From positions 1 through 27,829 of IMG/VR virus record IMGVR_UViG_3300024301_000069: a DNA stretch of 27,829 nucleotides. One strand, 5' to 3'. The translations under genes were made by a program, and so were the position numbers. A model generated the notes under the pieces. The model saw only the letters and a program-made list of their open reading frames with translations. It had not been told where the DNA came from and ran no database searches. Of the stretch, positions 9,411-27,829 are shown in pieces (positions within the stretch are counted from its first letter, which is position 1; every line of letters starts with the position of its first letter). The stretch is from a virus.

Positions 9411-9486
9411 CACGATGGTGTACGCCTGCCCGCACTGGTAAGCCGTCGTTCTCCGTAGCCCCCTTCCGCAAGGTTGGGGGCTTTTT
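9411..9486 (+). ncRNA. Candidate short structured RNA
   Basis: The gap between the convergent arms could be transcribed from the extended -10 promoter to the terminator as an RNA of about 76 nt. Its 5' part can fold: ACGATGG (9412-9418) pairs with CCGTCGT (9443-9449) with one G-T wobble, and the terminator hairpin forms the 3' end. No open frame of useful size lies inside. It is not a tRNA: there is no T-loop or acceptor pairing. The entire unit is a prediction from spacing and folding; it could equally be an ordinary terminator region with a chance -10 match. Confidence 0.3.
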
Positions 9487-9490
9487 ATTT
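9457..9490 (+). terminator. Rho-independent terminator between convergent arms
   Basis: AGCCCCC (9457-9463) pairs with GGGGGCT (9476-9482). Inside are CC/GG pairs around a GCAA loop, separated from the outer stem by a TT/TT mismatch. The run TTTTTATTT follows at 9482-9490. It serves the + strand arm. On the - strand no T-run follows the hairpin, so termination of the structural arm here is less certain, although its last stop codon (9485-9487) abuts the stem. Confidence 0.8.
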
Positions 9491-12400
9491 GTTGTACTCG
9501 CGTCGGCTCTCCTCGATCTCTTTGCGTACCAATGGGTTTATAGTGACACCGTTGTACATTTCAGAAGAAGTTTTCCTAGCACTTTTGAGAGACCTTTGGA
9601 TAGCTTCGTAATCTAGTCTTGCCCCGGGATGTTTGCGGTTAAACTCCCGCATGTCTGCCAGCACCGCCTGTTTAGCTTCGAAATCACCAGTCCGTAAGGC
9701 TACGTAGTATCGACGCGTGATGTTAGTACGCTCGTCAAGAATCGCCCGCTCGACACGCTTGTCGCGTTGGTTCTGCTCTTGCTGGAACGCGTAGTCTGCA
9801 GGGGCGAAACCAATTGCTTGCGACATCATCTCCCATGTAGACATATCAGCGTACATCGGATCACCACGTCGGCTATATATGCCACCGTCTTTCTGATAGC
9901 GCCCGAAAGTAGTCTTATACGCGTTAGCTACACCGGCTGGGAGCATTGACTCTACCCCCCGCTGCATATCACCGCTTGTTAAGTCGTCAACACCACGTAA
10001 GAATCGTTTAAAGACACTTAGTGATGGGCCTCCTATGTAATACATAATATCTTCTTCTAGAGAAGCATTATGGTTATATCGGTTCTCTTGAATAAGTAGC
10101 CCACTTAGGCGAACACGGTCAGCGATATTGATGCCGAGTGCTTCTTGGAGTGGGCCTTTAAACCACCCTTCATCTATTTGTTTACGCACAAGTGTATTGA
10201 AGTCATCTTCGTCGTCATCAAGGAATAGGAGGTCTGCCAGCATCTGCACTGCCCCGTAAAGTGGTACACCATATACCCCGGCGAAAAACATTGAAGCCCC
10301 GTGGAAGCCAAGAATCTGCTTGAACGCACGGTTGCGGGTAGCTTTGTCACCTTCGATATGAGCGTCAACCAGCCCCTTAGCTGTTTTCATCATGGTGTAG
10401 TACATCTGCAAGCCGTATGACTTGTACATAAACGCCACGCGTCCAAGCCCTTCTTGTGATACTCTCGGCGCAGTTTCGAGTACAGCCCCACCGTTCGTCT
10501 CTTGTGCGGTGTACAGTGCCTCCTCCGCGGCTTTAGCTTCGCGTTGTGCTTTCGGCATCTTAGGGTTATCTGCGGCTATCTGCTCAAGAGCCAAGTTATA
10601 AGACGCGATAATAGTAGCTTGACGGTTAAATCGTTCTGCTTGGTTAAACGCCATTGCGGAAATAGCTGAGATACGATTCATATTACGCCCTGCAAAGCCC
10701 CCACGCAGTGCACGGCCACCTTCTTCCAAACCCAATGCGTCTAGGAGAAACGACCGGCTCAATAGCCCACGGCTTGCTGCTAACTTAACTACAGGTGCTA
10801 TACGCTCTAACTCTTTCACTGTATCTGTATCTAAATCAAGATCAGTGCGTACGTTATAGTCCCCATTAGGAGTAACGTCGTAGTAGCTGTCAACACCGTA
10901 AGCAAGCGTCACCCTATCCAGTGCTTTACCTACCATGCTAGAGGATTCGGCACCGATTTTAGAGCCGGTAACCAGCTTCATAGCTTTAAAGATTTCTGCT
11001 GAAGTATTCTCGTAGCCGTATTTGCCCCCAAGCATAGGTAGCACGAATAGTGGTACTTGTGAAAGGTTAACAAGTGCAGACGCGACGTTGAAGCCGATTG
11101 TGTATATGAACGCTAGCTGGTTCGCGCCTTTATACGCCCGCTCTAGCTGCTTATTCTTAGCGCCAGACATAGCAAACTTAGCGCGGATTAGAAGCTCTTT
11201 TTTGACCATATCAGCTGGGATTTCACCCACTGCGCGCCCTGCCATAGTTTTAGGTCCGCCAGTATCAGCGGGCTCCGCTTCAAAAATCTCATCTGCAAGT
11301 TGTTGTATTTTGGCACTATATTCTAAACGTGCTGTTTGGCGTCCAAGGTCGTAGCCTTTTGTTTTCATAGCGTGGAGTGCATCTTGAATGTACCCGGGAG
11401 TCCCTTTCCTACGCTGTAGTGACTTAGCAAAAGAAGTTTCAGGTAGAGCTTCGACAAACAAACGTAATATCTGCGCTTGAACGTCCTCTGCTACACCGTT
11501 AGCTTTTAATGTTTGCAAGGTCTGCCCTACGAATGAAGTAGGCGGCGCAGCTTGGAACTGCTCGAGCCCGTAGTCTCCATCGTGAGTTTTGATAGAAGAT
11601 ACAACTACATTGGGGTCTTCTTTAAGTTCATCCATAGCACGCTTACGAGCTGCGTAGGTATCGAACATCTCTACAACGTAGGCGTCTTCTGCACGGTCGA
11701 CCGAGCTGTCTTTTAGGGAATACTCGAGCTTGTACGAACCTTCACGGATTAACGGGAAGTACACGGACAGCGTGCTAGTATCAAACAACTTCGCATACAC
11801 TTCTCGTTTCAGTTTCTTCGCAACTTCGGGGTCGCTAATCGCATTGTCTATACGCCCGTAAATAACGTCGCGTAGCCGTTCGTACTGCGTTTTGTACATG
11901 CCTTGCATCAACTTATAAGCACGCTGCCCATCAGCCCCTAGCGCGTCCCAATCGGCGCGCTGAGCTTTCCAGATATCAAACAGCTTGCGGCCAGATACTT
12001 CAGTATCGCCGTACGTTTTACGTGCTTGCGCCTGAGATAGCGTTGGGTCTACTTGCCAGATAGTAGCACCGTACTCACGGCTGTAGATTAGGTTATTCAG
12101 CTTAGCATTAAGCTCCGCCCCCGCGGTTTTAGTCCACCGCTCTACCGCACGAACGTGCTTTTGCACCCACTCATCTGCCTCATACATTTTCCCGCGCTGT
12201 TCTTCCACCAACCTATGTAAGCGCAGCCCAAGGTCTTTTAGGCCAACTTTTTTCGCTACATCACCAAGCGCCTGCGAGCCAAGTAGTTTTAGGTATACAA
12301 GTTTAGTGTTATTACCTACACCGGCACGCAAGAACTCCTCACTAGAGTCTGCAAAGTCTTGGCGGAACTTCTCGGTGAGCTTTCCTACACCTTTTTGAGT

Positions 12401-15400
12401 GTTATCTACCTCTTTAATCTCCTGCTCCACACCACGCCGTGTAGAAGCCATTGGCAAGTCCGTCGAATCACGGTACTTAGGTGCAGGGCTGATAATTGCT
12501 TCAATCATAGAGTCTGCCGCAGTAAGTGCGGAATCGATAGACTTCGGCTGCATACCAATTAGTTTACGTACGAAGTTCCCAACAGAGTTAACAAAACGTT
12601 GGAATGCACTAATCTCTTTGCCATCTGGATACATACCAGCCAATTTCTGCTGGAACTCCGGATTACTCATCGCTTCAGAAACAAACTCATCCACGTTAGT
12701 CGCACCGTACGCTGAATCAAGCATAGGTGTAACGTCTTCAAGCAGCTTAGTTAACTGTTTGGTAAGGGGATGGTTCTTGTTTGCTAGTGTCGCGCTAACC
12801 GCCGCGTGCGTAACTTCGTGCAGAAGAACATGAGGGTTCATGCCTGTTTCTGCGTCCAACTTGATAGTGTTGGTTTTAGGGTCAAATAAACCACCGACGG
12901 GATTACCCCGAGAATCTTTCAGGTTTTGCACGATCTCGATCTGTGTACGCTCCTGCTCAACACCAGCTGACTCTACAACCTTTGCTAGTTTACGAGCTGT
13001 ATTCGCAACGCGCTGATTCTGAGTAGTTACAGAGAGTGCACGTAGTGCGGCGCTTAGGTTACCTTGGGTTAGCAGCCCACGTACTACCGGGTGCATGGGG
13101 GCACTCAAAGCCAGCACCGAATCTTGAGGCATCAGCAATTCGTTAATGAACTCTATATCCCCGTCCACCATAGCCTTCTCAAGAGCTTTTGCAGCGGCCT
13201 TGTCAGTTTTACGCCGTTCTGCAACGTTATCGGTCAAGGTATATAGATTCTGTGCGTACGCAGCGTGTGCTTCATCCGCAATCTGCGTGTTTAGCCACTT
13301 AATAGTCTGCTCAGACATATTGGCTTCAACCCACTCCCGGGCTAGGTTCGCGTTTTTACCGCCAGTACCCCTAAAGAAGTCTGCTTCAATATCAGTCTCG
13401 CCTTCTGCACGGCGGTAGTCTTTAGGCTGAAACGCAATATCATGCGCAAGCATAGCTAGCACGTCAGCGGGACGCGGTAGTTTTTGGAAATATATCTTAG
13501 CCGCGGAAGCAGATTTATCATTTCTGACATCTGTAGTTAGTAGCTCTAATACCGCTGTCTTATCTCCCGCCGTGCTGGGGTCCGTTTTTTCAAACTTAAA
13601 GGCTTCAGCAAAGGCACGTACGGTAGGTTTAGCGCGTTGCTCCCATAAGTCTTTAATCTTAGTAGCAATTTTAGCATCGCGCCCCAAGGCTTCTTTTGTC
13701 CGGCCCGTTTCAACTCTAGGGCCTACCGGCTTAGCTTCTGTTGTTTCTTTAGTGGGTTTACGCGTAGCTTTCGGTTTAGCAGCAGGTTTAGCTTTTTTGG
13801 TCGGTTTTTTAGCTTGAGGGGCCTCTACAGGCGCTGCTTCTTGCTCAGGCGTAGCACCGGTGCGTGCTTCAATACGTTGTCTCTCTGCATCTATTTCTTG
13901 CTGCAGTGTAGCTTCGTCCGTTACGCGTGTTTCAAGCGGACGTTCGATAGCCCTAGCTGCACCGGGCGCAATATCTAGTGTAAGCTGGTCTGGGCTTTCT
14001 CCTCCAATAGGTCTTCCAACGCCGCGCTCAGCTGCTGCCAATCCTCGTCCTCTAGGTGCTGCAGCTGGTTCGGCACCGATTCCACTGAGAGGTGGTACAG
14101 CTCCGACGCCCACAGGTCGTTCAATACTTGAAACGCTAGCTCTATCTGCTGGCGGCTCAGCTGCTGTTTCCCCTGCACCTCGGCGTCCTCGTCCTGACGG
14201 TTGGAATAGTTCAAGCTGTTCATCCGGTGTACCCTCCAATTTACGAGCCACATTAAGCCGAGTCTGCTGTGAAATTTTCGGGTTATTAGCAAACTTAACA
14301 AACTGTTCCCTTACATCTGGATCGTTTAAATCTTTGTTCTCTGTACGCTTGCGTATAGGTGCAGCGGGGGAGATACCTAAATCGTCTAAAAACTCTTTAG
14401 TAACAATAGTTGGTTCTGGAGCTTGTTCTGGTAACGTCTCAGGACGTGTATCACGTCGTTTACCCATGCCGGGGAACGCCATCTGAGAAGGCTCTGCGGG
14501 GGCAGCGGCTTGGCGTTCTGGTATGCGTGCCTCCAGCTCCGCAATCTGGGTGTCTTCGGGAGTCGTCTCTACTTGATCGATAACTTCTTGAGGAGCTACA
14601 TCGGTATCTGCAGGTCGCAGCCCAGCATACGCATCAGTAGCACGGCGTATACGCTCTCGCTCAGTCTTTGTAGGCCGAGCATTGCGGGCACTAGCGACAT
14701 TTTGCCGCTGCAATTCTTTAGAAAAGCGCTTTTCTACGTTTGTACGACTGCCAGTAGATAGCTCAGCGAGCACACTGTCTAACACTTCACTACGGCGTGC
14801 TGTCTTTTCATCTTGTACAATCCTAGCTTCCGACGGGGTACTTTCGGCTTCAGAAGCACGCTTAACACGTTCTAGCTCTGCTATTGCTTCCTCGTCAGCC
14901 CCCATCAATTCTTGTAGCTCGGCGTCCTCGGCCATGGCCTGTTCTTGTTGGACCATCTCTGCGAGCTGCGCATCTTCTGCTTGCGCAATCATATCGGGAG
15001 TGCCAGTCTCTTGCTCCCGCAGTGTGAGGTATTCCTCCGTCGTCATCGGGCGCTGTGCATCTTCAGAAGTTAACAGGTCAAAAACCATCTCTTCTGTTAT
15101 CGAGGCAGGCTCTACACCTTGCTCAGTTAGTATATCGACAGCAGCGTTTATCTCGTCTCCAGTAAAGTCAGTTAGCGCGCTGCCATAGTCAGGGCCTTGC
15201 TCAACAGTTGTAGGTGTAGCGCGACCGGGGAATAACTCACCTTGACCTTCAAATCCGCGCTGATCGCCTAATTTAGGCTCCTCAATTTCCTCCGGGGTAA
15301 CCTCGCCCAGTTCAACCCTATCGGTAGTTTCGGTTCCTCTTACACGGCCTTTGGTAAACGTATCAACAACGGCTTGGAGGATTCCACCTGCACCGCCGCC

Positions 15401-16231
15401 AGCAATGGCCTCGTCAATCAGGCCAGCATCAAGGAGTTCGCGCTCTGCGTTGTAGCCACGCTCGTTAAGGTTCTGTAGAAACCCCGCTGCGGCTTCCTGC
15501 GCTGCTTCAACGCCACCAGTCGTAAGCGCACTACGGATACGGCTACCGCCCGCTTCAACGGCTTTACCGCCAATCTTTTCAGCGAACTTAGATACCCCCG
15601 GAATACGGAGGATTCGGCCTAGTGGTAAGATTTCAAGTGAGCCGATTCCAGCGCCGCGAGCGGTAGCTATATTACGCTCTTCTTCGGTAGCGCCGGCGGC
15701 ACGGGCCCGTTCACTTGCTTCACCAGCACCGGCCCCTATACCTATAAAACCTGCTCCGATAGTACCAATAGCGGTAGCAGCGGCGGCAGGGGCGGCGTAA
15801 GCAGCGATAACAGCAGGGGTCAATGCCCCAGCAACAGAACCAAGTCCTGACGAAACAAGATACGATAGAGAGTCTTGGTCGCCCCCTTCAGGACGAATTG
15901 CGTCTGCGACGCTCATTATCTTTTGCCGTGCGGCAAGCTCGTCCTCTTCTTCAAGCAGTGTAGCGGCACCCAGTGCAGCCATCTCACCGGTACCGACATA
16001 ACCTGCACCGAAACCAGAAGCTACGTTCTCGAAAAATCCGGGGTCTTCGTCTCCGCGGCTTAGCAAGTCACCATACGTAGCATTTTGCTGCTGTAGGAAT
16101 GCGGCTAAATCCCCCTCTTGCTGGGGGAGGCGTCTTTGTTGGATAGCTATTGCTAACTTCCGTGCTGCATCCACATCCCCCGCTGCATGGGCATTTTTGA
16201 GCGCGGCGCCCAACTCGTCTAGTGTTGCCAT
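9485..16231 (-). CDS. Giant internal virion (ejection) protein with metallopeptidase motif
   Basis: 2248 aa, the size class of phage internal or ejection proteins and polyvalent proteins that enter the cell with the genome. The start is helical (LGAALKNAHAAGDVDAARKL). Gly/Ala-rich hydrophobic stretches follow at about 65-200, with a VEAAQEAAAGF segment near 245 and another Gly-rich stretch after it. Residues 300-900 are acidic, Pro/Lys-rich and probably disordered. A zinc metallopeptidase signature HEVTH lies at 1138-1142, with E1182/E1186 as possible third ligand, resembling the MPTase-PolyVal family. The C-terminal third has an AERFNRQATIIASYNLA motif near 1860-1880, like large polyvalent protein-associated domains, and a hydrophobic helix near 1978-2002. 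It probably forms part of the DNA-ejection channel; the peptidase may cut host or virion proteins. It is last in the structural arm, 10 bp after the 557-aa gene. Confidence 0.8.
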   Translation of the reverse strand: MATLDELGAALKNAHAAGDVDAARKLAIAIQQRRLPQQEGDLAAFLQQQNATYGDLLSRGDEDPGFFENVASGFGAGYVGTGEMAALGAATLLEEEDELAARQKIMSVADAIRPEGGDQDSLSYLVSSGLGSVAGALTPAVIAAYAAPAAAATAIGTIGAGFIGIGAGAGEASERARAAGATEEERNIATARGAGIGSLEILPLGRILRIPGVSKFAEKIGGKAVEAGGSRIRSALTTGGVEAAQEAAAGFLQNLNERGYNAERELLDAGLIDEAIAGGGAGGILQAVVDTFTKGRVRGTETTDRVELGEVTPEEIEEPKLGDQRGFEGQGELFPGRATPTTVEQGPDYGSALTDFTGDEINAAVDILTEQGVEPASITEEMVFDLLTSEDAQRPMTTEEYLTLREQETGTPDMIAQAEDAQLAEMVQQEQAMAEDAELQELMGADEEAIAELERVKRASEAESTPSEARIVQDEKTARRSEVLDSVLAELSTGSRTNVEKRFSKELQRQNVASARNARPTKTERERIRRATDAYAGLRPADTDVAPQEVIDQVETTPEDTQIAELEARIPERQAAAPAEPSQMAFPGMGKRRDTRPETLPEQAPEPTIVTKEFLDDLGISPAAPIRKRTENKDLNDPDVREQFVKFANNPKISQQTRLNVARKLEGTPDEQLELFQPSGRGRRGAGETAAEPPADRASVSSIERPVGVGAVPPLSGIGAEPAAAPRGRGLAAAERGVGRPIGGESPDQLTLDIAPGAARAIERPLETRVTDEATLQQEIDAERQRIEARTGATPEQEAAPVEAPQAKKPTKKAKPAAKPKATRKPTKETTEAKPVGPRVETGRTKEALGRDAKIATKIKDLWEQRAKPTVRAFAEAFKFEKTDPSTAGDKTAVLELLTTDVRNDKSASAAKIYFQKLPRPADVLAMLAHDIAFQPKDYRRAEGETDIEADFFRGTGGKNANLAREWVEANMSEQTIKWLNTQIADEAHAAYAQNLYTLTDNVAERRKTDKAAAKALEKAMVDGDIEFINELLMPQDSVLALSAPMHPVVRGLLTQGNLSAALRALSVTTQNQRVANTARKLAKVVESAGVEQERTQIEIVQNLKDSRGNPVGGLFDPKTNTIKLDAETGMNPHVLLHEVTHAAVSATLANKNHPLTKQLTKLLEDVTPMLDSAYGATNVDEFVSEAMSNPEFQQKLAGMYPDGKEISAFQRFVNSVGNFVRKLIGMQPKSIDSALTAADSMIEAIISPAPKYRDSTDLPMASTRRGVEQEIKEVDNTQKGVGKLTEKFRQDFADSSEEFLRAGVGNNTKLVYLKLLGSQALGDVAKKVGLKDLGLRLHRLVEEQRGKMYEADEWVQKHVRAVERWTKTAGAELNAKLNNLIYSREYGATIWQVDPTLSQAQARKTYGDTEVSGRKLFDIWKAQRADWDALGADGQRAYKLMQGMYKTQYERLRDVIYGRIDNAISDPEVAKKLKREVYAKLFDTSTLSVYFPLIREGSYKLEYSLKDSSVDRAEDAYVVEMFDTYAARKRAMDELKEDPNVVVSSIKTHDGDYGLEQFQAAPPTSFVGQTLQTLKANGVAEDVQAQILRLFVEALPETSFAKSLQRRKGTPGYIQDALHAMKTKGYDLGRQTARLEYSAKIQQLADEIFEAEPADTGGPKTMAGRAVGEIPADMVKKELLIRAKFAMSGAKNKQLERAYKGANQLAFIYTIGFNVASALVNLSQVPLFVLPMLGGKYGYENTSAEIFKAMKLVTGSKIGAESSSMVGKALDRVTLAYGVDSYYDVTPNGDYNVRTDLDLDTDTVKELERIAPVVKLAASRGLLSRSFLLDALGLEEGGRALRGGFAGRNMNRISAISAMAFNQAERFNRQATIIASYNLALEQIAADNPKMPKAQREAKAAEEALYTAQETNGGAVLETAPRVSQEGLGRVAFMYKSYGLQMYYTMMKTAKGLVDAHIEGDKATRNRAFKQILGFHGASMFFAGVYGVPLYGAVQMLADLLFLDDDEDDFNTLVRKQIDEGWFKGPLQEALGINIADRVRLSGLLIQENRYNHNASLEEDIMYYIGGPSLSVFKRFLRGVDDLTSGDMQRGVESMLPAGVANAYKTTFGRYQKDGGIYSRRGDPMYADMSTWEMMSQAIGFAPADYAFQQEQNQRDKRVERAILDERTNITRRYYVALRTGDFEAKQAVLADMREFNRKHPGARLDYEAIQRSLKSARKTSSEMYNGVTINPLVRKEIEESRREYNK

Positions 16232-17917: not shown

Positions 17918-18754
17918 TTACTCTCCACTGCCTGTGTTGTTAGGGTTGTCAGGCAAAAACACTTTAGATAGAAGATCGTATATACCACCACTACCTGACA
18001 AAAAGTCACTTAGTGCACTAGGTTGCGCATAAGAGTACGACTGCGCAGCGATAGGCAACCCTTGTAGCAACGATTGCATGTACTGTACTTGTTTGTATGG
18101 GAAGTCACGCTCTTCTTCAAACTGCGCACGGTCAGCACTAAGACCTTCTTGCTCTATTCCACGCTGAAGTGCGCCAAAATCGGCTTGGCGTTGCAGGGCT
18201 GTAAGCCCGTACACATTCCCCGCTTCTTGTGCGCTACGGGCTCGATCTTGTTCAATATTAAACTGCTGCGCAGCTTTATCGTATGCAGAAGCGTAGCCTT
18301 GCCCAGTAACATTCGCCATCTTATCCAGCATAGCGCGGGTTAGTTCGACGTCAGCTAGTGCTTGTCGAGAACCACCATAAGCACCGGCACGAGTGAGGCG
18401 TCCAGCTTGCTCTACGCGCGACATTTCAGATTGACGGCGTAACTCATCAAGTTGTGGTTGTAACGCCGCATTTAGGTACGGATTCATGTACTGTTGAGCA
18501 GTGCCTTGTCCCGTAAACGATTGTGGCTGGTAAGCCCCCATATTTTGGGGTACAGCTAGCCCGGCTACACCTTGGAACGCTTGCTGCTGGAGGTTTGATG
18601 CGCCTGCAGTGAGTGGTCCGGTGTAGGCTTGATACGGCTCATTGGCTAGAGCTGCACCCTTACCAAGCATAGTTGTTACATAAGGACCGGCCCAGTTAGA
18701 GAGGGAAGACTCCTTACCTGTTACTTCTCCTACAACACTATTATCGTCTGCCAT
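17918..18754 (-). CDS. Conserved phage structural protein, helical
   Basis: 278 aa, rich in Gln, Ala and Gly. The N-terminal 90 residues are loop-rich (YQAYTGPLTAGASNLQQQAF). A helical middle follows, with MNPYLNAALQPQLDELRRQ, then RAGAYGGSRQALADVELTRA, then a long Gln/Glu helix to about residue 210. I recognise the YMNPYLxxALxPQLxEL and AGAxGGSRQA motifs from unnamed virion-region proteins of many marine podo- and siphoviruses, where they sit beside internal-protein genes. The C-terminus is short and loop-rich. It has no signal peptide, membrane helix or catalytic motif. The 8-bp gap upstream and 2-bp gap downstream show tight coupling. An internal virion or tail-tube-associated role is inferred from position only. 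Confidence 0.65.
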   Translation of the reverse strand: MADDNSVVGEVTGKESSLSNWAGPYVTTMLGKGAALANEPYQAYTGPLTAGASNLQQQAFQGVAGLAVPQNMGAYQPQSFTGQGTAQQYMNPYLNAALQPQLDELRRQSEMSRVEQAGRLTRAGAYGGSRQALADVELTRAMLDKMANVTGQGYASAYDKAAQQFNIEQDRARSAQEAGNVYGLTALQRQADFGALQRGIEQEGLSADRAQFEEERDFPYKQVQYMQSLLQGLPIAAQSYSYAQPSALSDFLSGSGGIYDLLSKVFLPDNPNNTGSGE

Positions 18755-18762
18755 GTCCTACC

Positions 18763-19569
18763 TCACGCTGGTAACATTTTGTTGGGCTTTATTTCTTTGC
18801 CCTGTTTTTCATTGCCTGTACGTTCTTTACGTACGCGGGCCATCATTTGCTTTAAGATTTTTGCACCTGCGGCGGAGTTGCCGTTGCCTAGGTGACTTAC
18901 TACATCAGCGGGGATTACAAACTCACCGTCGCTTAGTGCCGCGGGTTGCCGCCCGTCGATTTCGGCTGGAACTTTATCCGCCATACCGTCTGTTGATCCG
19001 TTGAGGTATTTCCCCTTTTTTAGCCCCATAAGACCACCTGCGGCAGCTTCAACTGTTTCAGGAGGCTGTGGCGGAGGTCTACGCTCCTCCCGTGCAGGGT
19101 TAGCTAGATTATATTCCATAAGGGCACGTGCCTGCTCATCCCCACGTGTACGCGCTGCGGTCTCGCCTGCTGCGCCTTGTACATACTCGACATCGGTAAA
19201 GTAGCGACGTCCGGAGCTACCGGGGCGGCGATTCGGGTCGTACGTATATTCGGGGAGGCGTGGCCGTTGCGCTTCTGCGGCACCTTGTAGACTACCGAGA
19301 CCACTAAACATATCAGCATCAGCTTCAGGGGTTCCCGGTTGTTGCATGGGCACACCACGGCGAATAGCAGTTAGTTGCGGAATACCGCCTTGGTAACCCG
19401 TTGGAGGTATTTGTGGGTCACCTATACCGGAGGCATTACCGAGGTAACTAAGCCCGGCGGACCCAAGTTGCAATATACCTTCAGGGGACATAATATAGTC
19501 TAATCCCTGCTGACCTGCAGTTTTAAGCCCTGCGGTAAAATCGTCTAGTAAGCTGTCAAACCAACTCAT
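18763..19569 (-). CDS. Conserved phage virion-region protein with GEFVIPADVVS motif
   Basis: 268 aa; its ATG overlaps the stop of the 1799-aa gene (ATGA). Residues 1-60 are helical with a mildly hydrophobic stretch. The middle (70-170) is Pro/Arg-rich and probably disordered. The C-terminal third carries a block I recognise from marine phages: AAAGGLMGLKKGKYLNG, then IDGRQPAALSDGEFVIPADV, then LGNGNSAAGAKILKQMMARV. The function of this block is unknown to me. It may mediate assembly with the neighbouring proteins, since the 557- and 1799-aa proteins carry comparable short A-x-GG segments. No enzyme motif is visible. The sequence ends in a Lys-rich tail. Confidence 0.65.
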   Translation of the reverse strand: MSWFDSLLDDFTAGLKTAGQQGLDYIMSPEGILQLGSAGLSYLGNASGIGDPQIPPTGYQGGIPQLTAIRRGVPMQQPGTPEADADMFSGLGSLQGAAEAQRPRLPEYTYDPNRRPGSSGRRYFTDVEYVQGAAGETAARTRGDEQARALMEYNLANPAREERRPPPQPPETVEAAAGGLMGLKKGKYLNGSTDGMADKVPAEIDGRQPAALSDGEFVIPADVVSHLGNGNSAAGAKILKQMMARVRKERTGNEKQGKEIKPNKMLPA

Positions 19570-22500
19570 TTTTTGCCTCCAATAATACGTAACAACTTAT
19601 CAGTTGTGTCCTCTACTTGTCCACCTTTTGCATAAGGGCTTGGGAACATTGCTGCCTGTGAAGGCGTAGCAAATATGCTGCTCCAGTCGTAGATATAGTT
19701 TAATTGTAGCGGATCAGGAGTTTCTACAGTAACTTGTTGCCCCATAGCGTCTGGTGCCATAAGAGCTTGTTGTAAAAAGTCGCGTCCACCTTGCTGTAAA
19801 AATTGCTTCTCCATCTCAATAGAGGTGTCTTGTGCCATCTGCTGAACCATATCCATAGTTTGGTTCTGGTTTTGGTATAGTCCGGTCGGTGCGAATACAG
19901 ACGTGGGCGCTACTTGAGAGGTGGTTACGTCCCCCGCCAATAACTGCTCAAGCATCTGCTGGTCTGCAATATCTACTACGTTATCGCCTGTAACGTCATA
20001 CTGCGTGATCTGCTGCTCGTTAAGCGCTTGATTTTGGGCAATAACGTCGGCAACAAAATCAATATCGGTTTGGGTAACGTCTTGCGCAGGTTTGCCCACA
20101 TACTCTGCAATCTGCTGAAGCTCTTGAGATGTAACATTTGCAGCGGCTACGGGTAGATAATCGCTAATACCCTCTTTGCTAGTAGCTTCAAACTCATCAA
20201 GCGTATAATCCGACGTCGTTGGGTCATACTGTCTAACAAACCGATCTAAATCTTCTTGGGTTACATTCTGGAGTCCGAGGTCTTGATAAGCAGCAAGAAC
20301 TTCATCTGCGCTTAAATACCGAGGGTCTACGTACTCACTGATCGCAAGTTCTTGGGTAGTTTGATAGTTAACGTCGTTCAGCTGACCTACAAACTTCTGT
20401 ACTTCTTCATCAGTAGGGTTGTACCCAATATCGGTTAAGTACGCCCGTGCTTCAGTTTCTGTTACTTGCCGCGGGTTTACGTACTCACCGATTGCGGTTA
20501 TTTGCTCTTCTTCAGTTTTAGAAGCAACAAAGTCAGCAATTTCTTCCGGTGTAGCGGTATACCCGGATTCTTCAAAGAATTGTGCGGCTTCATCCTGCGT
20601 TGTTGCTAGCGGATCGTATTCGGCACGGGCAGCTTCAAGTTGAGTTTCTTGGTACGCCTCATCACCCTGCCCAACGTAAGTTTGTGCGAGGGCTTCGGTA
20701 AAGGTTAGTCCTTCTTCGTCCGCAATAGCTGCTATTTCGTCCAACGTTACTTGCCGTGGATCGACGTACTTTGAAATAACCTCAGATTGAGTAGTTTCCT
20801 CTACCTGTGCAACAAACTGCTGGACTTCTTCGTCAGTTGGTGTGTACCCAAGATCAGAGAAAAAGCCTCTCGCATCTTCCTCTGTTACTTGCAGCGGATC
20901 AACGTACTGTTCTAAACGTAGGGGAGCATTTGCTTCGTAATTAGCCCCACCTTGCCCTACAAAGTTACTTATTTCCTGTTCACTTGGAGTGTAGTCAAGC
21001 CCTGCAAACAGCCCTGCAACCTCGTCCGCTGTAATCTGCCGTGGGTCTACATACGCCTCAAGGTTGGTAAGTATGTCGGCTTCGTTACCTTCTTGGACGA
21101 ATTGACCAACTTCATTATTGACCGGGTTGTACTCTAGTAAAGCAAAAGCCTCTTGTATTTCCGCATCGGTAGTGCCTAGAGGGTCGTATACCTCTGCTAC
21201 TGTGCCTAACGTTTCGGTCTCGTCTTGCCACCCGATGTATTGCTGGGCATCCTCCGCAGTAATTGTTACCCCCTGCGCTGCGGCTGCATCTATAACTTCT
21301 TGGGTATCAACGTGTTTTTGGTCTATGCTGGTGTTAACAGCATCTTGTAGTGCAGTGCCGCCTTGAGTGCCGACAAAACTGTCTATATCAGCACTGGTGG
21401 GGGTATACCCACCTTCTTCCTCGGTAGCCCACACACCAGAGGCGTTTTCATACGCATCAATTACCGCTCCGGTACTAGCGTATGTTTCTGGGTCAATCTG
21501 ACTAAACACGTTACCTACAACAACAGGGTCAGTAATACCTATAGTGTCGAGAGCTCTAGTTGCAGCGGCAATGTCACCTTTTTCTATGGCAGAGTTAATA
21601 TCGGGAGAGAGCAACGAAACTGCATTTGCATACGCATCTTTTGTTTGGGATAAACCGTAGGCACCCCCAGATACACTTGAACCGACAATGAAGCCCATAA
21701 ACGCCGATGCGGTAACTTCTCCAGCGATATCTATACTTGGGTCTAATTGCTTCAGGTGGCTAGCCGTGAACGCTTGAGTTAGTCCCTCCTCAATGGATTC
21801 GGTAACCCCTTCTTTTAATGTGATAACGCCGCCGTTAGCAATACGTCGAGTAAGTTCAGTAACACCGTCTGCTAAAAAGCCAGATACATTATCTTTGTTT
21901 AAGATAGCTTTCTCTAAGGCTAGTCCGCCAACACCAAACGATGCAGCGGTAAGGGTAGCTGCGACAGCACCGGATTGAACAGCTAACTCCAGTGCATAGT
22001 TTTGTGCGTCCGCTTCGGACATTCCGCTGTCAATCGCTATAGAATACGCGCGGTCGTATGTATCAGCTGCTGTACCCCCAAAACTTTCGGTGAGATCAGT
22101 CGCTGCAGCGGCACCAAGCCCCGTCCTCGCTGCAATACGGGTAGATAAAGTTTTACCGGCAGCATACGCAGCGCCTTTAACACCTAGGGTAGCTACCCCA
22201 CCTACCGCTAGCGGTACAAGCTCCTGCATAGCCTCTACACCAACGTATTCGGCTAAGAACGTAGTTGGATGTTCTGTAATACCCCCAGCGAGTGCGCTCA
22301 TTTTATCTATGGCTTTGTCGTACCATGGGAGCGCATCGTATTCGGACTGTGTGATTTCAGTCGCTTCTTCCTCTGATAGCCCAGTAGCCATGAGTGCTTC
22401 TTTACGTAGGTCTTTAAACCCTGAAGAACTCATCTGTTCTTCAAGTTCTTTTAGGTTCTCTTTGTATTCTTCGGTATTGCTATTCTCACCAAGTTTGACG

Positions 22501-24965
22501 AGCTTTTTAGCAAACTGCCCCACAGCTGTGTCAGAAGGAGCTACGCCGAATAGGGCAGAAACACCGTTAAACGCCTTGAGAATTCCTCCCGTCGCCTTCA
22601 AAACATTAGCTATCGTATCCTGTGCGTTGTCGTAATCATTCTCGTCTGCCCAATTAAGAAGAGACGAAACAGTATCAATGGTTTGATCTGTGAACCCCAT
22701 TGCATCAGCAGCTTCCTTGGCTACGTCACTGTCGGCACCGCGGGTAATAACGATAGTAGTGAGCAGTTCAGCGTTATCCGCCGTGCTAACGCCATCATAA
22801 GTGTTTGTTATGAACCCAATACTTTCACCGTCGTCGTTTACCAGTATAGTGCGGACTTCTCTACCAATAGCGTCGTATGTGGTGGTTTTATTTACTCGCC
22901 CGTGGTTAGGGTCCCAATATTGCTCAGAGGTTTCTAGCGGTCGGAAGACTCGGTTACCGTTCACATCTATATCGATAGCTATCGGATTGTAGATAACATC
23001 TTCGTAAGTGACACCGTCCGCGAGCTTGGCAGTATTAACACCTTCCTGTGCGTCAGCTATTAGCGCGACTTTTTGCTGGTTAGTGAGCGCATCGCCATTT
23101 GTCATGTCAGCGGTATCAAAACCAAGCCGCTCTAGCGAAGTTCGTGTGGCATCATCTAGGGTGTCTTTGCTAAGCGCGGGATCAGCATTCTGCAGTATGG
23201 CTTGTTCCAACGTACGCACGTAGGAGCTAGTAGTATTCGGGTCGTCAAGAATTTCACGTAAGGAGCTTATTGGTAAGTCTGCTAACTCTTTATGGATCGC
23301 ATGAAAACTCTTTGGATCGATGTCCGCTGAGTCCAGCCCAGCAGCTTGGACAACAGCAACGAGGGCGTCTAGTTTTACTGACTTTTGCGCGGCTTCATAT
23401 TGCTCTTGGCTTTGGAACACTGTCGGATTGCCAGTATTGCCTAGGAAGTGCTCGTATACATTAACGTCGTCTCCGAGATCGTTAATGTTGCGATAGGATT
23501 CTTCCGCGAAGAGTGGGTTTAGTGTCAGAGTAAAGGCTTTGGCAGTCTCTTCATACAGCGGGTTAAGTGATTCGTCGAGGCGCTCAGTCGACACTTGCAT
23601 ACGGGCCCGTCTGGCATCTAACTCTTTATAGAGGCCAGTAAACTCTGCGTCTGGGTTTTCTTCAGTAGGGCCGGTACCAATCTGTTTACTTAGGTCGTTA
23701 ACCTCCTCAAGCAGGGTCTCCATTTGAGGGTTATAATCTTTGTATAACGCATTAAACTTTTTAACGTCCTTGTTCAATTTGTTGATAGCAGCTTTGTAAG
23801 CGGGGCTATCTAATGTAAGGTCAGAGTTCTTAACTCGGTTCACTTGCTCTGTATATAGATCACGCTCCGTGATGGGATTAGCCGTAATTCTTTGGTTAAG
23901 GCTTTTAGCCCCCTCCAACCGCTCACTTTCAGCAATGATAGCGTCATACTTGTCCTTTAATTCCACACGCATGGCTTCGTACTGCTCGGATTTTGACGCG
24001 CGCGTAGTTGCTAATTCATCTATTTTATTCGCGGATTCCTCCAACCGCTGGTAATCTCCACTGATTTTATCGAGGGTGTTACCTATGAGATCACCGACTT
24101 TGGAGTCATCGATCGCTTTGTTTAACGCCTGAGTACCGTACGCAGACATGACGTTCTTAAGTACGGCAGCTGCTTGCTCCCCCGATCCACCTGACAGTGC
24201 GATAGCTGACACCCGCTGTATAGCAGCGGTGGTGTATGCAAGGGCAGTAGGGTCATTAATAGCTATACCGCCAGATGCGGCCATTTTTTGTACGAGGTCG
24301 GTAGTGAGAAGCCCACGGGTTACGGCGTTAGCTATCACGCTTGCGTCAACTTCGCTCCCAGATAACTGTGCAGAGATTGCAGAGCCGACAATATTTTCTA
24401 CTACAGCAGGTATTGGAGTAGTCTTGCCAGTATTAGGATTGGTAAAGTTCCAACCAAGTTTCTGTTTAATCTGTCCAAGGGCGGCAGATGTTGCCCCGCT
24501 TACACCTCCGGTAAAGAAGGCTTCCACCGGGTCAGTTCCGTAGATCACCGCATAGGTAGCGCTAGTTGCTCCTTTAGTAACCGCATCGGTAACTATTTCG
24601 TTGGCTACTGCATTATTAAATAGGTCAGCATTTCCCATAGCCTCGCCGACATAGTCACTAACTTCACCAGCTATTTTTTGGGATGCGTATGATACTGCGA
24701 CTGTTTTTAGGACATCCCCGATGTCACCACCCTTTACGGCTACACTTGCGCCGTCAACGAGTGGGATAGCCCAAGCGTTCCCAGTAGCATACAGAGCAAT
24801 TTTTGCCGCGGTCCCCAGTGGGTCCTCCGCTAGCCCTTTAAGGGTATCTCCCACAAAATCGACCGCTGGCTTAGCAATTTTGTCAACGGCAAAGTCGACT
24901 ACGTTGCCAACTGCTTTAGCTGCACCACTAATTGCTTTCCCAACTGCTTTAGCTACACCACCCAA
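19566..24965 (-). CDS. Giant virion protein with tandem repeats and an EF-hand-like loop
   Basis: 1799 aa. The start is TTG at 24963-24965 with GGAG 6 bp upstream; TAG at 24975-24977 closes the frame, and no ATG or GTG lies between. The N-terminal 35 residues are an Ala/Gly/Val/Lys amphipathic stretch (VAKAVGKAISGAAKAVGNVV). Charged coiled-coil-like helices occupy about 290-470. Gly/Ala-rich hydrophobic stretches lie near 900-1100 and include EGVTESIEEGLTQAF followed by FIVGSSVSGGAYG. Residues 1218-1600 are tandem repeats, described separately. At 1657-1668 a loop DVTGDNVVDIAD matches dockerin or EF-hand calcium loops. The C-terminus carries AKGGQVEDTTDKLLRIIGG. Size, membrane-type segments and position before the 268-, 278-, 557- and 2248-aa proteins suggest an internal or tail protein that contacts the membrane during ejection. 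No catalytic domain is recognised. Confidence 0.7.
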   Translation of the reverse strand: MGGVAKAVGKAISGAAKAVGNVVDFAVDKIAKPAVDFVGDTLKGLAEDPLGTAAKIALYATGNAWAIPLVDGASVAVKGGDIGDVLKTVAVSYASQKIAGEVSDYVGEAMGNADLFNNAVANEIVTDAVTKGATSATYAVIYGTDPVEAFFTGGVSGATSAALGQIKQKLGWNFTNPNTGKTTPIPAVVENIVGSAISAQLSGSEVDASVIANAVTRGLLTTDLVQKMAASGGIAINDPTALAYTTAAIQRVSAIALSGGSGEQAAAVLKNVMSAYGTQALNKAIDDSKVGDLIGNTLDKISGDYQRLEESANKIDELATTRASKSEQYEAMRVELKDKYDAIIAESERLEGAKSLNQRITANPITERDLYTEQVNRVKNSDLTLDSPAYKAAINKLNKDVKKFNALYKDYNPQMETLLEEVNDLSKQIGTGPTEENPDAEFTGLYKELDARRARMQVSTERLDESLNPLYEETAKAFTLTLNPLFAEESYRNINDLGDDVNVYEHFLGNTGNPTVFQSQEQYEAAQKSVKLDALVAVVQAAGLDSADIDPKSFHAIHKELADLPISSLREILDDPNTTSSYVRTLEQAILQNADPALSKDTLDDATRTSLERLGFDTADMTNGDALTNQQKVALIADAQEGVNTAKLADGVTYEDVIYNPIAIDIDVNGNRVFRPLETSEQYWDPNHGRVNKTTTYDAIGREVRTILVNDDGESIGFITNTYDGVSTADNAELLTTIVITRGADSDVAKEAADAMGFTDQTIDTVSSLLNWADENDYDNAQDTIANVLKATGGILKAFNGVSALFGVAPSDTAVGQFAKKLVKLGENSNTEEYKENLKELEEQMSSSGFKDLRKEALMATGLSEEEATEITQSEYDALPWYDKAIDKMSALAGGITEHPTTFLAEYVGVEAMQELVPLAVGGVATLGVKGAAYAAGKTLSTRIAARTGLGAAAATDLTESFGGTAADTYDRAYSIAIDSGMSEADAQNYALELAVQSGAVAATLTAASFGVGGLALEKAILNKDNVSGFLADGVTELTRRIANGGVITLKEGVTESIEEGLTQAFTASHLKQLDPSIDIAGEVTASAFMGFIVGSSVSGGAYGLSQTKDAYANAVSLLSPDINSAIEKGDIAAATRALDTIGITDPVVVGNVFSQIDPETYASTGAVIDAYENASGVWATEEEGGYTPTSADIDSFVGTQGGTALQDAVNTSIDQKHVDTQEVIDAAAAQGVTITAEDAQQYIGWQDETETLGTVAEVYDPLGTTDAEIQEAFALLEYNPVNNEVGQFVQEGNEADILTNLEAYVDPRQITADEVAGLFAGLDYTPSEQEISNFVGQGGANYEANAPLRLEQYVDPLQVTEEDARGFFSDLGYTPTDEEVQQFVAQVEETTQSEVISKYVDPRQVTLDEIAAIADEEGLTFTEALAQTYVGQGDEAYQETQLEAARAEYDPLATTQDEAAQFFEESGYTATPEEIADFVASKTEEEQITAIGEYVNPRQVTETEARAYLTDIGYNPTDEEVQKFVGQLNDVNYQTTQELAISEYVDPRYLSADEVLAAYQDLGLQNVTQEDLDRFVRQYDPTTSDYTLDEFEATSKEGISDYLPVAAANVTSQELQQIAEYVGKPAQDVTQTDIDFVADVIAQNQALNEQQITQYDVTGDNVVDIADQQMLEQLLAGDVTTSQVAPTSVFAPTGLYQNQNQTMDMVQQMAQDTSIEMEKQFLQQGGRDFLQQALMAPDAMGQQVTVETPDPLQLNYIYDWSSIFATPSQAAMFPSPYAKGGQVEDTTDKLLRIIGGKK
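20166..21191 (-). repeat. Protein repeats of 45-50 aa in alternating A/B order
   Basis: Seven units in the 1799-aa protein begin at residues 1260, 1305, 1354, 1400, 1450, 1495 and 1545, with a degenerate unit at 1218. Spacings are 45, 49, 46, 50, 45 and 50, an alternating pattern giving a superrepeat of about 95 aa. A units open with (V/Y)DPL, except the last, which reads VDPR; B units open with V(D/N)PRQ(V/I)T. Each then runs to a helix, GYxPTxEE and FVxQ. The DNA copies have diverged, so this is not a recent slippage expansion. Confidence 0.85.
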
Positions 24966-24974
24966 TTTAATCTC

Positions 24975-25472
24975 CTACCGCAGTAACCCTTCAGAAAGGG
25001 GCTGCTTACCGATAAGCATATACACCACAAAAGTGTTAGGATCGTCTTCGGATTGGCTAACACTAATAACTGTATCCCCTTCATCACGCTCTATTCGGCG
25101 CTGGAATAGCTTAAACGCGTTTAAATACACAGGTGTACTGAAAGAGGTAGTGTAATGAGTAAATCCACGCTCTTGTAAGTACGTAAAATACTTAAAGCCG
25201 TTAATAGCAAAGTTACGTGCAGTATCTATGTTAAACGCACGGCCGACCATCTTCTTACTGTCTTCCCCTTCCCCATAATGGCCCATATATACTGTATTAC
25301 CTACCTGAATGATGTCCGTATTTGGCAGGCTTGCTTCCGCCGCTAACGCAGTTAACACGTCGTTTTTCGGTATATTAGGGTCCGCAGCAGTGTCGTTGTG
25401 GTACACATACTGCGCCAAAATCTCTGGACCCGTAATAAGTTTCTTTTTGCTGTCAATAACTAATGACTCCAT
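24975..25472 (-). CDS. 165-aa protein of the ACP-KAS cassette, possible GNAT-like acyltransferase
   Basis: The ATG directly abuts the ketosynthase stop, with GGAGG 5 bp upstream inside that gene, so the three cassette genes are coupled. No family is certain. The second half shows a helix (ARNFAINGFKYFTYLQERG), a strand (FTHYTTSFSTP), a helix (VYLNAFKLFQRRI), and two strands (DTVISVSQ, FVVYMLI). This order resembles the C-terminal half of a GNAT acyltransferase, where a late helix after an x-N-x-A segment shapes the acyl-donor pocket. A clear Q/RxxGxG/A pyrophosphate loop is not seen. Alternatives are a small virion or assembly protein belonging with the 1799-aa gene 9 bp downstream. An acyltransferase using the phage ACP is an attractive guess from context, not a demonstrated function. 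Confidence 0.4.
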   Translation of the reverse strand: MESLVIDSKKKLITGPEILAQYVYHNDTAADPNIPKNDVLTALAAEASLPNTDIIQVGNTVYMGHYGEGEDSKKMVGRAFNIDTARNFAINGFKYFTYLQERGFTHYTTSFSTPVYLNAFKLFQRRIERDEGDTVISVSQSEDDPNTFVVYMLIGKQPLSEGLLR

Positions 25473-26579
25473 CTATACCTCCGGGGAAAATACAGCGGCT
25501 GAATAGATGTTACCCATACCAGCAGCTAAGCTAAGGAATGGGCCGTTTACGGCAGGCGCGGGGGCAGACAAAAACACAGGATCATCACTGGTCCTGTTGG
25601 GGATTGCGGGAATAACACCTAGTTTAATGTCGTCTAGCAACAGTCCAGTCTCCAATAGTCCGCTGGCTCCTACAGTATGCCCAATCTGTGGTTTATATGA
25701 TGTTGCTATAAACTCGTTAAGGGATCGTCGTAAAGCCTGTTTTTCCGCAGCATTGTTGACTGGCGTACCAGTACCATGCGTTTTTACTAATCTTACTTTA
25801 TTTTTATGCAGTTTGGCTACATCTAATGCGCCTTCAATAGCGTGACTAAACCCCTCCCCATCAGGGGTTTGCCCCAAAGGGTTACTGTTACGTTCCCCAC
25901 CAGTGTAGGCACCGAGAAATTTAGCCACCGGTTCGGCCATATTAGCGTGCTCTTTTTCGAACACGAAGATAGCTGCGCCTTGACCTACAAAAAACCCTGT
26001 ATTCACGTCATCAAATGCTGATGGACACCCTCCATCTTTTAGTAGTAAGTTAGCGCCCGACTCCCCAAAAAACTCTAACGTGTTGTTATGCACAGAATCT
26101 TCAACAGTAGCTACAATCATCCGATCGTACCCGTACATCCACATCAAGTGCTGCATCTCCATTAGTACTTTGAGACTAGAGGCGCAAGCACTTGCGTCAG
26201 TAGATACGTAGTCTGGCGCATTAAGCATACTAGCTAACTTACCTGCGTATATATTTGTCAAGGTCAAAAAAGGTACTTTAACTTTGTAGTGCAGTGTGGC
26301 GTCAGGGTTCCTGTCGTAGCGGGCGCTTGTCCCCTGCCAACCTTGACTACCTCCGGCAAATAAAAACCCAGTTTTACCCGCTACGGGGGTGTTACGTAGG
26401 TAGTTTACTAATTCTTCGTCTAACAAAGACTCTAGGAGCCGGTGTGGCGGGTAGAACAAACCCGTCTTAAACCGCCTATACGACTCAGGAATCATATGCA
26501 CGTATTGGGGGTAAGGTATGTCGTCGATTAAAGTGGTGGTAGTGGTGCTAGCAGTACGGTATTTCGTAACATAAATCAT
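25473..26579 (-). CDS. Beta-ketoacyl-ACP synthase (FabF/KAS-type), phage-encoded
   Basis: 368-aa thiolase-fold condensing enzyme. In this family an acyl-Cys intermediate is condensed with malonyl-ACP to extend the chain by two carbons. The whole active site is present: Cys132 in STDASACASSL, His268 in KTHGTGTP, Lys296 and His301 in KPQIGHTVGASG, and Glu310 nine residues after His301 as in FabF. A FFVGQGAAIFVFE strand matches the usual GFVxGEGA block. It is about 45 residues shorter than FabF. The C-terminal gate loop is altered: GMGN (354-357) replaces GFGG, so the gatekeeper Phe400 equivalent is Met355. ATG overlaps the ACP stop (ATGA) with AAGGA upstream. No other elongation enzymes are in the window, so host FabD, FabG, FabZ and FabI would be needed for full cycles. 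The family is certain; the product is unknown. Confidence 0.93.
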   Translation of the reverse strand: MIYVTKYRTASTTTTTLIDDIPYPQYVHMIPESYRRFKTGLFYPPHRLLESLLDEELVNYLRNTPVAGKTGFLFAGGSQGWQGTSARYDRNPDATLHYKVKVPFLTLTNIYAGKLASMLNAPDYVSTDASACASSLKVLMEMQHLMWMYGYDRMIVATVEDSVHNNTLEFFGESGANLLLKDGGCPSAFDDVNTGFFVGQGAAIFVFEKEHANMAEPVAKFLGAYTGGERNSNPLGQTPDGEGFSHAIEGALDVAKLHKNKVRLVKTHGTGTPVNNAAEKQALRRSLNEFIATSYKPQIGHTVGASGLLETGLLLDDIKLGVIPAIPNRTSDDPVFLSAPAPAVNGPFLSLAAGMGNIYSAAVFSPEV

Positions 26580-26881
26580 GACAAATCCTTCACAAGGTCT
26601 TGGATAGTTGCGTACTCGTCTTCTGGATTCCGACGTTTATGCTCCATAATGAAGTCATGTATGGTACGGATAGTTTGAGTAGGCCAATTAGGTTCCAGCT
26701 CTGGCGGGATGTCATACGCCTCTGCGAGGATAACTGTAACTAAGGTAACGTCAAGGCTATCTAAGTTTAAGTTATCGGGGGTTATCTCAGTGTCTAGGGA
26801 GTCAGCGGGCTTATAGTTGTCAAATACGGGTTTTTGACTACGCCCGACAGCGTTAAAAAGTTCAAGAAAATCGAAAGTCAT
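26576..26881 (-). CDS. Acyl carrier protein, phage-encoded
   Basis: 101-aa acidic helical protein with the phosphopantetheine site LDSLD (Ser42), followed by helix II and EAYDIPPELE, which aligns with the E-x-FDIxIPDE region of bacterial AcpP. After modification by a phosphopantetheinyl transferase (host-supplied, since none is here) it would carry acyl chains as thioesters. It is about 24 residues longer than AcpP, with an extra charged C-terminal tail (HKRRNPEDEY and on). Two of the helix II acidic residues that dock partner enzymes in E. coli ACP (Glu41, Glu47) are Leu47 and Ala53; Glu54 remains. AAGGAG lies 7 bp before the ATG. It is the first gene after a promoter-like sequence and overlaps the ketosynthase by 4 bp. 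Confidence 0.9.
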   Translation of the reverse strand: MTFDFLELFNAVGRSQKPVFDNYKPADSLDTEITPDNLNLDSLDVTLVTVILAEAYDIPPELEPNWPTQTIRTIHDFIMEHKRRNPEDEYATIQDLVKDLS

Positions 26882-26946: not shown

Positions 26947-27570
26947 CTATAAGTTGCTAACAAATGATACCGCAACGACTGCGGATGGAATACCGGGATG
27001 AGGTGTGGTAGGAGCTTCGGTAGCGAGCGATGCAGTAGTGTCGTCAGTCGCCCAATACATCTCTATGTACTCTCCTGCGGTTAGATCAATAGAAAAGTTC
27101 CAATACACGGGTTGGTTTGCGTTACCTACGACGGTTTGTTGTTGCCCGCCGTAGGTCACATCAGTGCCGTTCTTGTTAATCCAAGTCCATACCTGCACAG
27201 CTGACGAGTTCGTGTGCGCGGTCTGTAATGTCACTTGGAAGTTGTAAACTCCATCAGCCGCCACAGTAATCTGTGTATTATCTGCACCCGCTATACTTAC
27301 CCCGTTGCCGATATACGTATTTTCAAATTCTATCGGATACCCAGTGTTAATAGCTGCCGCGCTCTGGTTTGTGGTGCTGTAAAACAGCCCCCGTGGCATG
27401 TATAGAAACTTGCCACCATCATCGGTGCTTAGAAGCGTGTTGATAGTATTGGTAATTCGGTTGAAGAACAGCCGCAGAACATTACTATTCTGGTCCATAA
27501 ACGGTCGGCTGTACTCTTCAGGTGGCAGAGGTAACGCTGGTGGCTCTGCCCTATCAATATCGTTAGCCAT
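26947..27570 (-). CDS. C1q/TNF-like jelly-roll virion protein, probable fibre or decoration
   Basis: 207 aa; ATG overlaps the stop of the upstream gene by one base. Residues 25-50 form a short helix (NVLRLFFNRITNTINTL), likely a trimerising or anchoring segment. From residue 58 on the sequence is beta-rich: MPRGLFYSTTNQSAAAINT, then GVSIAGADNTQITVAADGVY, NFQVTLQTAH, VWTWINKNGTDV, YWNFSIDLTAGEYIEMYW, and a final SAVVAVSFVSNL strand. This strand order and the AAxGVYNFQ and AGEYIEMYW motifs are typical of C1q/TNF-like jelly-roll domains in marine phage fibre or neck proteins. The likely role is surface binding or adsorption on the virion. No peptidase or lyase signature is seen. Confidence 0.8.
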   Translation of the reverse strand: MANDIDRAEPPALPLPPEEYSRPFMDQNSNVLRLFFNRITNTINTLLSTDDGGKFLYMPRGLFYSTTNQSAAAINTGYPIEFENTYIGNGVSIAGADNTQITVAADGVYNFQVTLQTAHTNSSAVQVWTWINKNGTDVTYGGQQQTVVGNANQPVYWNFSIDLTAGEYIEMYWATDDTTASLATEAPTTPHPGIPSAVVAVSFVSNL

Positions 27571-27829
27571 TACCGCCGCCCGTCAGGTCGCAGGTCAATC
27601 CGGGGAGCCCCCAGCTGCCACTGGGTACCACTGCTCGTAGACTCAACTTTTAACGCCATCTGGCGCCCCCTGATTCGGGTATAGAGTTGTCCGGTGTATT
27701 GCTCCACAGGAATTGTAGCGGAACGAGTGACGGTACCCCCAGATTCACCACCTTCTGACAGAGGGCTATTATAAGAAGAACCTGAATTCTGCAGTGGGTA
27801 TAATGTCATAACCGCTGACGGTGTGGAGC
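27570..27829 (-). CDS. 3' end of a phage structural protein (partial)
   Basis: The frame stays open to the right edge: six further codons (STPSAV) precede the Met at 27807-27809, so that Met is probably internal and the gene is truncated by the window. The visible C-terminus reads YTRIRGRQMALKVESTS, then WQLGAPRIDLRPDGRR. This IRGRQM...W.LG..R.D.RPDGR ending is one I associate with large beta-rich structural proteins in the head-tail or tail region of marine podoviruses. It lies directly upstream of the jelly-roll gene with a 1-bp overlap, consistent with a tail module. The exact role is not determinable from this fragment. Confidence 0.65.
   Translation of the reverse strand, partial: STPSAVMTLYPLQNSGSSYNSPLSEGGESGGTVTRSATIPVEQYTGQLYTRIRGRQMALKVESTSSGTQWQLGAPRIDLRPDGRR

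Follow-up and report, generated by a model that had tools for sequence, protein, structure and literature searches.

A conserved ACP, ketosynthase and GNAT-fold gene cassette next to the ejection genes of mostly uncultured phages, with a possible role in acylating a virion protein

Why does a phage keep an acyl carrier protein (ACP) and a beta-ketoacyl-ACP synthase (KAS) among its virion genes? Published phage ACP and fabF genes have been treated as metabolic genes, and reported phage and prophage acpP and fabG-acpP-fabF were interpreted accordingly (PMC8224337; PMC11705849), as were the fabG-acpP-fabF sets carried by Rhodobacteraceae prophages (PMC8224337). The window, by which we mean the whole stretch of DNA analyzed here, is a 27.8-kb linear virus record whose related records measure about 55–66 kb, and it shares with these prophages an ACP and a KAS gene side by side. 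The prophage sets keep the bacterial fab order including fabG, whereas the cassette in the window has no fabG, lies in a virion block and is followed by a gene for a GNAT-fold protein. No description of this triad was found in open-licence full texts. Our preferred explanation, to which we give somewhat less than an even chance, is a module resembling HlyC: KAS and ACP would ready an acyl chain, which the GNAT-fold enzyme would attach to a virion protein, most likely the ejection protein.

Organization of the locus

The ACP gene (26576–26881, minus strand; 101 aa) is preceded by the ribosome site AAGGAG immediately 5' of its ATG, and its stop codon overlaps the start of the KAS gene (25473–26579, minus strand; 368 aa) by ATGA. 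The third gene (24975–25472, minus strand; 165 aa) starts with an ATG directly 3' of the KAS TAG, and the sequence GGAGGT lies within the final KAS codons. The open reading frames and the GGAGGT site confirmed what the sequence-only reading had given for the coordinates, the strand, the ATGA overlap and a third gene abutting the KAS stop with its own ribosome site.

The cassette is located between two tail genes and the ejection block. On the upstream side are the C-terminus of a tail-hub (stabilization) protein (27570–27829, minus strand; phrog_3287), which is cut at the window end and measures about 620 aa in relatives, and TF1 (26947–27570, minus strand), a tail-associated protein with a C1q/BclA-like C-terminal domain. 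On the downstream side, the ejection block opens with a giant ejection-type protein of 1799 aa (19566–24965, minus strand), which has a TTG start, begins MGGVAKAVGKAISG and carries an amphipathic-looking N-terminal domain. Two conserved genes common to triad phages come next, one of 268 aa (18763–19569, minus strand) and one of 278 aa (17918–18754, minus strand) that matches the PHROG 'DNA ejection protein'. All three cassette genes are therefore placed among virion genes on the same strand, as had been proposed.

Degenerate repeats of the type 'GYTPT.EE...FVGQ...YVDPRQVT' occur several times in the C-terminal half of the 1799-aa protein, and a dockerin/EF-hand-like stretch (DVTGDNVVDIADQQMLEQLL) comes after them. 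Another very large gene (9485–16231, minus strand) encodes a giant polyvalent protein of 2248 aa, which is perhaps injected. It contains an HExxH-like stretch, LLHEVTHAA, and its match to 'Large polyvalent protein associated domain 39' is borderline. No tRNA genes were found within the 27.8-kb window.

The acyl carrier protein and the ketosynthase

The window ACP alone has no Pfam match, and single ACP sequences score below the curated Pfam and NCBIfam cut-offs. A profile built from 25 ACP sequences matched ACPs only in the PDB list (best 2.7e-4), and the predicted model (pLDDT 89) resembles ACP structures in a fold search. The protein thus combines a helical fold and a profile match with the phosphopantetheine site D41-S42-L43, of which D41 and S42 are kept in 115/115 distinct homologues; the median dN/dS of the gene is 0.109. 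No PPTase gene was found in 14 related genomes or records, so the activation of the phage ACP must come from the host (AcpS).

The KAS contains both Pfam domains of its family (PF00109 and PF02801; E = 3e-10 and 1e-16; 40.6 and 61.2 bits against a gathering score of 20.8) and matches FabF-type PDB chains down to 1.5e-18. Its Cys132, His268, Lys296, His301 and Glu310 align with the catalytic set of E. coli FabF, which gives the Cys-His-His triad plus the Lys and Glu of the KAS I/II enzymes, and the core of both domains is likewise shared with FabF/FabB and FabF-like ketosynthases. Among homologues the cysteine is invariant (124/124) and the other catalytic residues are never substituted; the median dN/dS is 0.042. 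In contrast to FabF, the phage KAS is about 45 residues shorter, chiefly on the N-terminal side, and the gatekeeper motif GFGG reads GMGN, the Phe being replaced by Met355 and the Gly by Asn357, both of which are invariant. It reaches 88.3 bits against the FabF equivalog TIGR03150, far from the cut-off of 493.75, and it likewise scores far under every curated NCBIfam cut-off that it was scored against. The phage KAS is a divergent virus-borne branch, far from FabF.

The same data bear on the view that ACP and KAS are auxiliary metabolic genes that boost or redirect host fatty-acid or phospholipid synthesis, with the GNAT-fold gene as an unrelated neighbour. The complete KAS active site and the published interpretation of the phage and prophage genes cited above agree with this view, but the low score at the FabF equivalog cut-off and the invariant exchange of the gatekeeper Phe for Met do not, and with the genomic evidence given below we consider it improbable. 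The same KAS family is represented by phrog_35856, which is annotated only as '3-oxoacyl-ACP synthase', with no proposed role.

A GNAT-fold family without the CoA loop

The 165-aa protein has no family match in Pfam, PHROGs, NCBIfam or PADLOC. Its model (pLDDT 90, pTM 0.85) was compared with the PDB using Foldseek, and nearly all leading matches were GNATs with a probability mostly of 0.95–1.0, at moderate TM scores of about 0.4–0.57 and E-values no better than 1.5e-3. By its predicted structure, the protein has a GNAT fold. The residues S8, G58, N59, D83 and N87 are almost invariant across homologues, and the median dN/dS is 0.065. At the place of the CoA loop (strand 74–81 to helix 85–101), the family reads (I/V)-D-T-(A/G)-x-N, and the R/Q-x-x-G-x-G/A loop of acyl-CoA-using GNATs is not present in it. 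These properties are consistent with an ACP-dependent acyltransferase, and the gene is annotated here as a putative acyl-ACP-dependent N-acyltransferase. Whatever its target, the group represents a new GNAT-fold family. The HMM and structure searches accordingly agreed with the identities first proposed for three distinct proteins, the KAS being recognized by Pfam, the ACP by profile and model, and the third protein by fold.

Known families were compared with the protein. Membership of HlyC/RtxC was rejected, as neither the window protein nor 25 family members gave a Pfam match and no His is invariant. Membership of the LuxI autoinducer synthases was rejected for want of a match to the Autoind_synth profile. 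Homology to T7 gp13 (PF11090) was rejected at an hhalign probability of 0.3%; T7 gp13 itself matches PF11090, and the window protein does not.

LuxI-type enzymes have a GNAT fold, depend on acyl-ACP and form acyl-homoserine lactone from it. A KAS, an ACP and an acyltransferase would also be a logical small biosynthetic set, and the triad might in this manner make a small acylated molecule, such as an acyl-amine signal or a lipid. We regard this as very unlikely, because neither Autoind_synth nor any other acyltransferase family of Pfam matches the window protein or the 25 family members, no regulator gene was recognized within the cassette, and the GNAT-fold gene persists in phages that have neither KAS nor ACP, where it tracks a virion protein.

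The position of the gene raises another explanation, in which its product performs no acyl transfer and has a structural or assembly function in the ejection module. ACP and KAS would then have been acquired later, either for a separate role or as a structural chaperone. T7 gene 13, whose product is internal virion protein A, likewise lies between tail and ejection genes, one BFVD fold match with a GNAT-like fold is annotated 'Internal virion protein A' in another phage, and no other part of the cassette is as widespread as the GNAT-fold gene, which tracks the N-terminal domain of the ejection protein. However, there is no detectable sequence or profile similarity to T7 gp13, the near-invariance of S8, G58, N59, D83 and N87 resembles that of an active site, and the regular company of an ACP and a KAS with intact active sites is left unexplained. 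This explanation is, in our estimate, unlikely.

Distribution and conservation of the triad

IMG/VR was scanned with the window KAS, which yielded 327 relatives, and the best 80 of the 327 were analyzed. In these close loci the ACP gene is present in 80/80 and the four-base ATGA overlap in 79/80, and a third gene follows the KAS in 77/77 of those that reach far enough. MW202545.1 (Caudoviricetes sp. ctpbd312), which comes from Manatee Spring water, carries the full triad in identical order with a KAS 52% identical, annotated as '3-oxoacyl-ACP synthase' plus hypothetical proteins and with no proposed role. A second scan with its KAS as the query provided 66 further, more distant loci, of which 65 contain the ACP, the remaining one starting too near the KAS. 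Downstream of the KAS, 58 of the 66 extend far enough to show a GNAT gene, and 54 of these have it. The suggested co-occurrence was thus borne out, since all 80 nearest KAS loci, and nearly all of the 66 distant ones, keep the ACP-KAS-GNAT order, and the active sites, said to be intact in the window, are intact in every relative examined.

The arrangement is not due to chance, as it is found in more than 130 other contigs and is under strong purifying selection. The phages that carry it are aquatic and form a large group, most of whose members are uncultured. In distant triad phages, the hub protein is often barely recognizable; the triad therefore predates its flank or moves more readily than it does. 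A survey of 84,980 species genomes for a cellular source returned a single true relative, on the phage contig L084 described at the end.

One distant lineage (L109, L113, L114 and L119) carries ACP-KAS with intact active sites and without an adjacent GNAT gene. The pair is located there after helicase and nuclease genes and before small early genes, with helicase/primase-type neighbours, and has thus moved between modules. Either the GNAT gene lies elsewhere in these fragmentary genomes, or ACP-KAS has a use of its own. This occurrence in a replication-gene block counts in favor of the auxiliary metabolic role and against the acylation module. It also narrows the sequence-only reading, which had placed the cassette inside the virion gene cluster: this holds in very divergent phages but not in this lineage.

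On the other side, the fixed virion-block position across such divergent phages is difficult to reconcile with a metabolic role, and in the hub-anchored set described below KAS never occurs without GNAT. In addition, no ketoreductase, dehydratase or malonyltransferase genes were found in 14 related genomes or records, so the host must supply these activities, any reduction included. The missing genes speak against a self-contained pathway and fit the modification of an existing acyl-ACP pool. A dedicated product had earlier been preferred to a boost of host FabF, and it is still favored by the divergent KAS branch, the place in the virion block of very divergent phages and the lack of other fatty-acid genes.

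Gene content in hub-anchored loci

Scanning with the hub protein, which more than 600 contigs bear, gave a set of loci chosen independently of the cassette, which together with the close KAS loci amounted to 114 scorable hub-anchored loci. These comprise 60 with the triad, 4 with ACP and GNAT, 20 with GNAT only and 30 with none; the hub-centred part alone (59 loci) comprises 5, 4, 20 and 30, respectively. There was no case of KAS without ACP, or of ACP without GNAT, in the 114 loci. Phages with an ACP but no KAS retain the DSL motif, which gives no sign of decay, and lone genes with decayed sites, the case named beforehand as contrary to a working cassette, were looked for and not seen. The hub tree shows 9 changes of state for GNAT, 7 for KAS and 8 for ACP. 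An ACP elsewhere in the GNAT-only records was looked for and not found, most of these records being fragments. The pattern suggests that GNAT is the core, to which ACP was added, and that KAS was added to ACP. In L159:3070-3848, KAS is absent although the hub shares 98% identity with the hub of a triad phage; the ACP is a different one (33% identity) with DSL intact, and the GNAT is 61% identical.

Co-inheritance with the giant ejection-type protein

The N-terminal domain of the giant protein, detected by profile, is present in 83/84 GNAT-bearing but only 3/30 GNAT-less hub-anchored loci, that is, 83 loci have both, 27 have neither and 3+1 are discordant. In the hub-centred part, the corresponding values are 28/29 and 3/30. 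One of the three GNAT-less loci with the domain, L214, contains a weak GNAT-like ORF in the expected place. The upstream TF1 does not track the presence of the cassette or of GNAT in the hub-anchored loci. Among the GNAT-bearing hub-anchored loci, L196:3516-5218 alone lacks the N-terminal ejection domain, and its GNAT has DKARN in place of the DT..N of the family.

The two genes also vary together. In phage pairs whose hubs are 90–98% identical, a differing GNAT (31–42% identity) accompanies a differing N-terminus of the giant protein (33–50%). A tree-based pair test comprised about 7 independent contrasts, of which 4–5 pointed in the same direction and 0 in the opposite one (p 0.06–0.25); because the independent contrasts are few, the sign test falls short of 0.05. 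As the GNAT and giant-protein genes adjoin, their co-inheritance may be mere linkage.

No acceptor lysine is conserved within the first 260 residues of the giant protein, and 15/77 N-termini have no lysine in residues 2–60, so a fixed-lysine target in the N-terminal region is unlikely. The N-terminal amine of the giant protein is a possible acceptor. Small residues at position 2 would agree with acylation of the N-terminus, but the controls show much the same. MGCCSF is the start of the giant protein of L164 (ORF after 5114), and in several others an initial MG or MS comes before an amphipathic-looking helix. These starts are reminiscent of signals for N-terminal acylation, though not significantly so against controls.

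A possible virion acylation module

From the gene identities, predicted fold, conservation and co-inheritance described above, we infer an acyl transfer, its donor and its target as follows. Host AcpS would attach phosphopantetheine to Ser42 of the phage ACP. The KAS, whose active site is intact, would then load an acyl chain on Cys132 and condense it with malonyl-ACP or merely transfer it, with the outcome that a particular acyl chain is set on the phage ACP and host enzymes perform any reduction. As suggested by its fold, the missing CoA loop and its co-inheritance with ACP, the GNAT-fold enzyme would finally take the acyl group off the ACP and attach it to an amine of a virion protein. The likeliest target would be the giant ejection-type protein encoded directly downstream; its N-terminal domain hardly ever occurs without the GNAT-fold enzyme. 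When the DNA enters the cell, acylation would help this protein to insert into the host membrane. Insertion into the inner membrane is described for ejection proteins such as T7 gp16 (PMC8954989), and an acyl anchor would therefore be useful.

The order of an acyltransferase gene before its large target is also that of rtxC-rtxA. HlyC uses acyl-ACP, and its relative ApxIC is GNAT-like and lacks the CoA elements (PMC8339906). The phage protein resembles HlyC/RtxC proteins such as ApxIC in being a small GNAT-fold protein with no CoA loop, linked to an ACP and encoded directly before a large protein. It differs from them in that there is no sequence match, the catalytic His of HlyC is not conserved and the target is putative; moreover, the phage encodes its own ACP and KAS, whereas HlyC draws on host acyl-ACP. 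Besides the possible linkage, the lack of a conserved lysine and the lineage with ACP-KAS among replication genes, two further points weigh against the acylation module: phages with GNAT alone would depend on acyl-ACP or acyl-CoA from the host, and the TM scores that support the GNAT fold are moderate. In its most far-reaching form, in which widespread tailed phages make their own acyl-ACP and acylate an ejected DNA-delivery protein through a new GNAT-fold enzyme to give it a lipid-like membrane anchor, the proposal is conceivable but doubtful.

If the ejection protein is acylated, this would be, to our knowledge, the first phage-borne protein-acylation pathway and a novel means by which phages cross the inner membrane. 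A gene that is commonly classed as a 'fatty-acid AMG' would then belong to the virion machine. Even with another target, the strongly selected ACP-KAS-GNAT unit in very divergent phages is a directly testable three-gene system.

The closest annotated phages by polymerase have varied hosts. One triad phage contig, L084 (JAGYJQ010000016.1), which also encodes a major head protein and a 2OG-Fe(II) oxygenase, was binned in a Balneolaceae MAG, and this binning is a possible hint to the host of one lineage.
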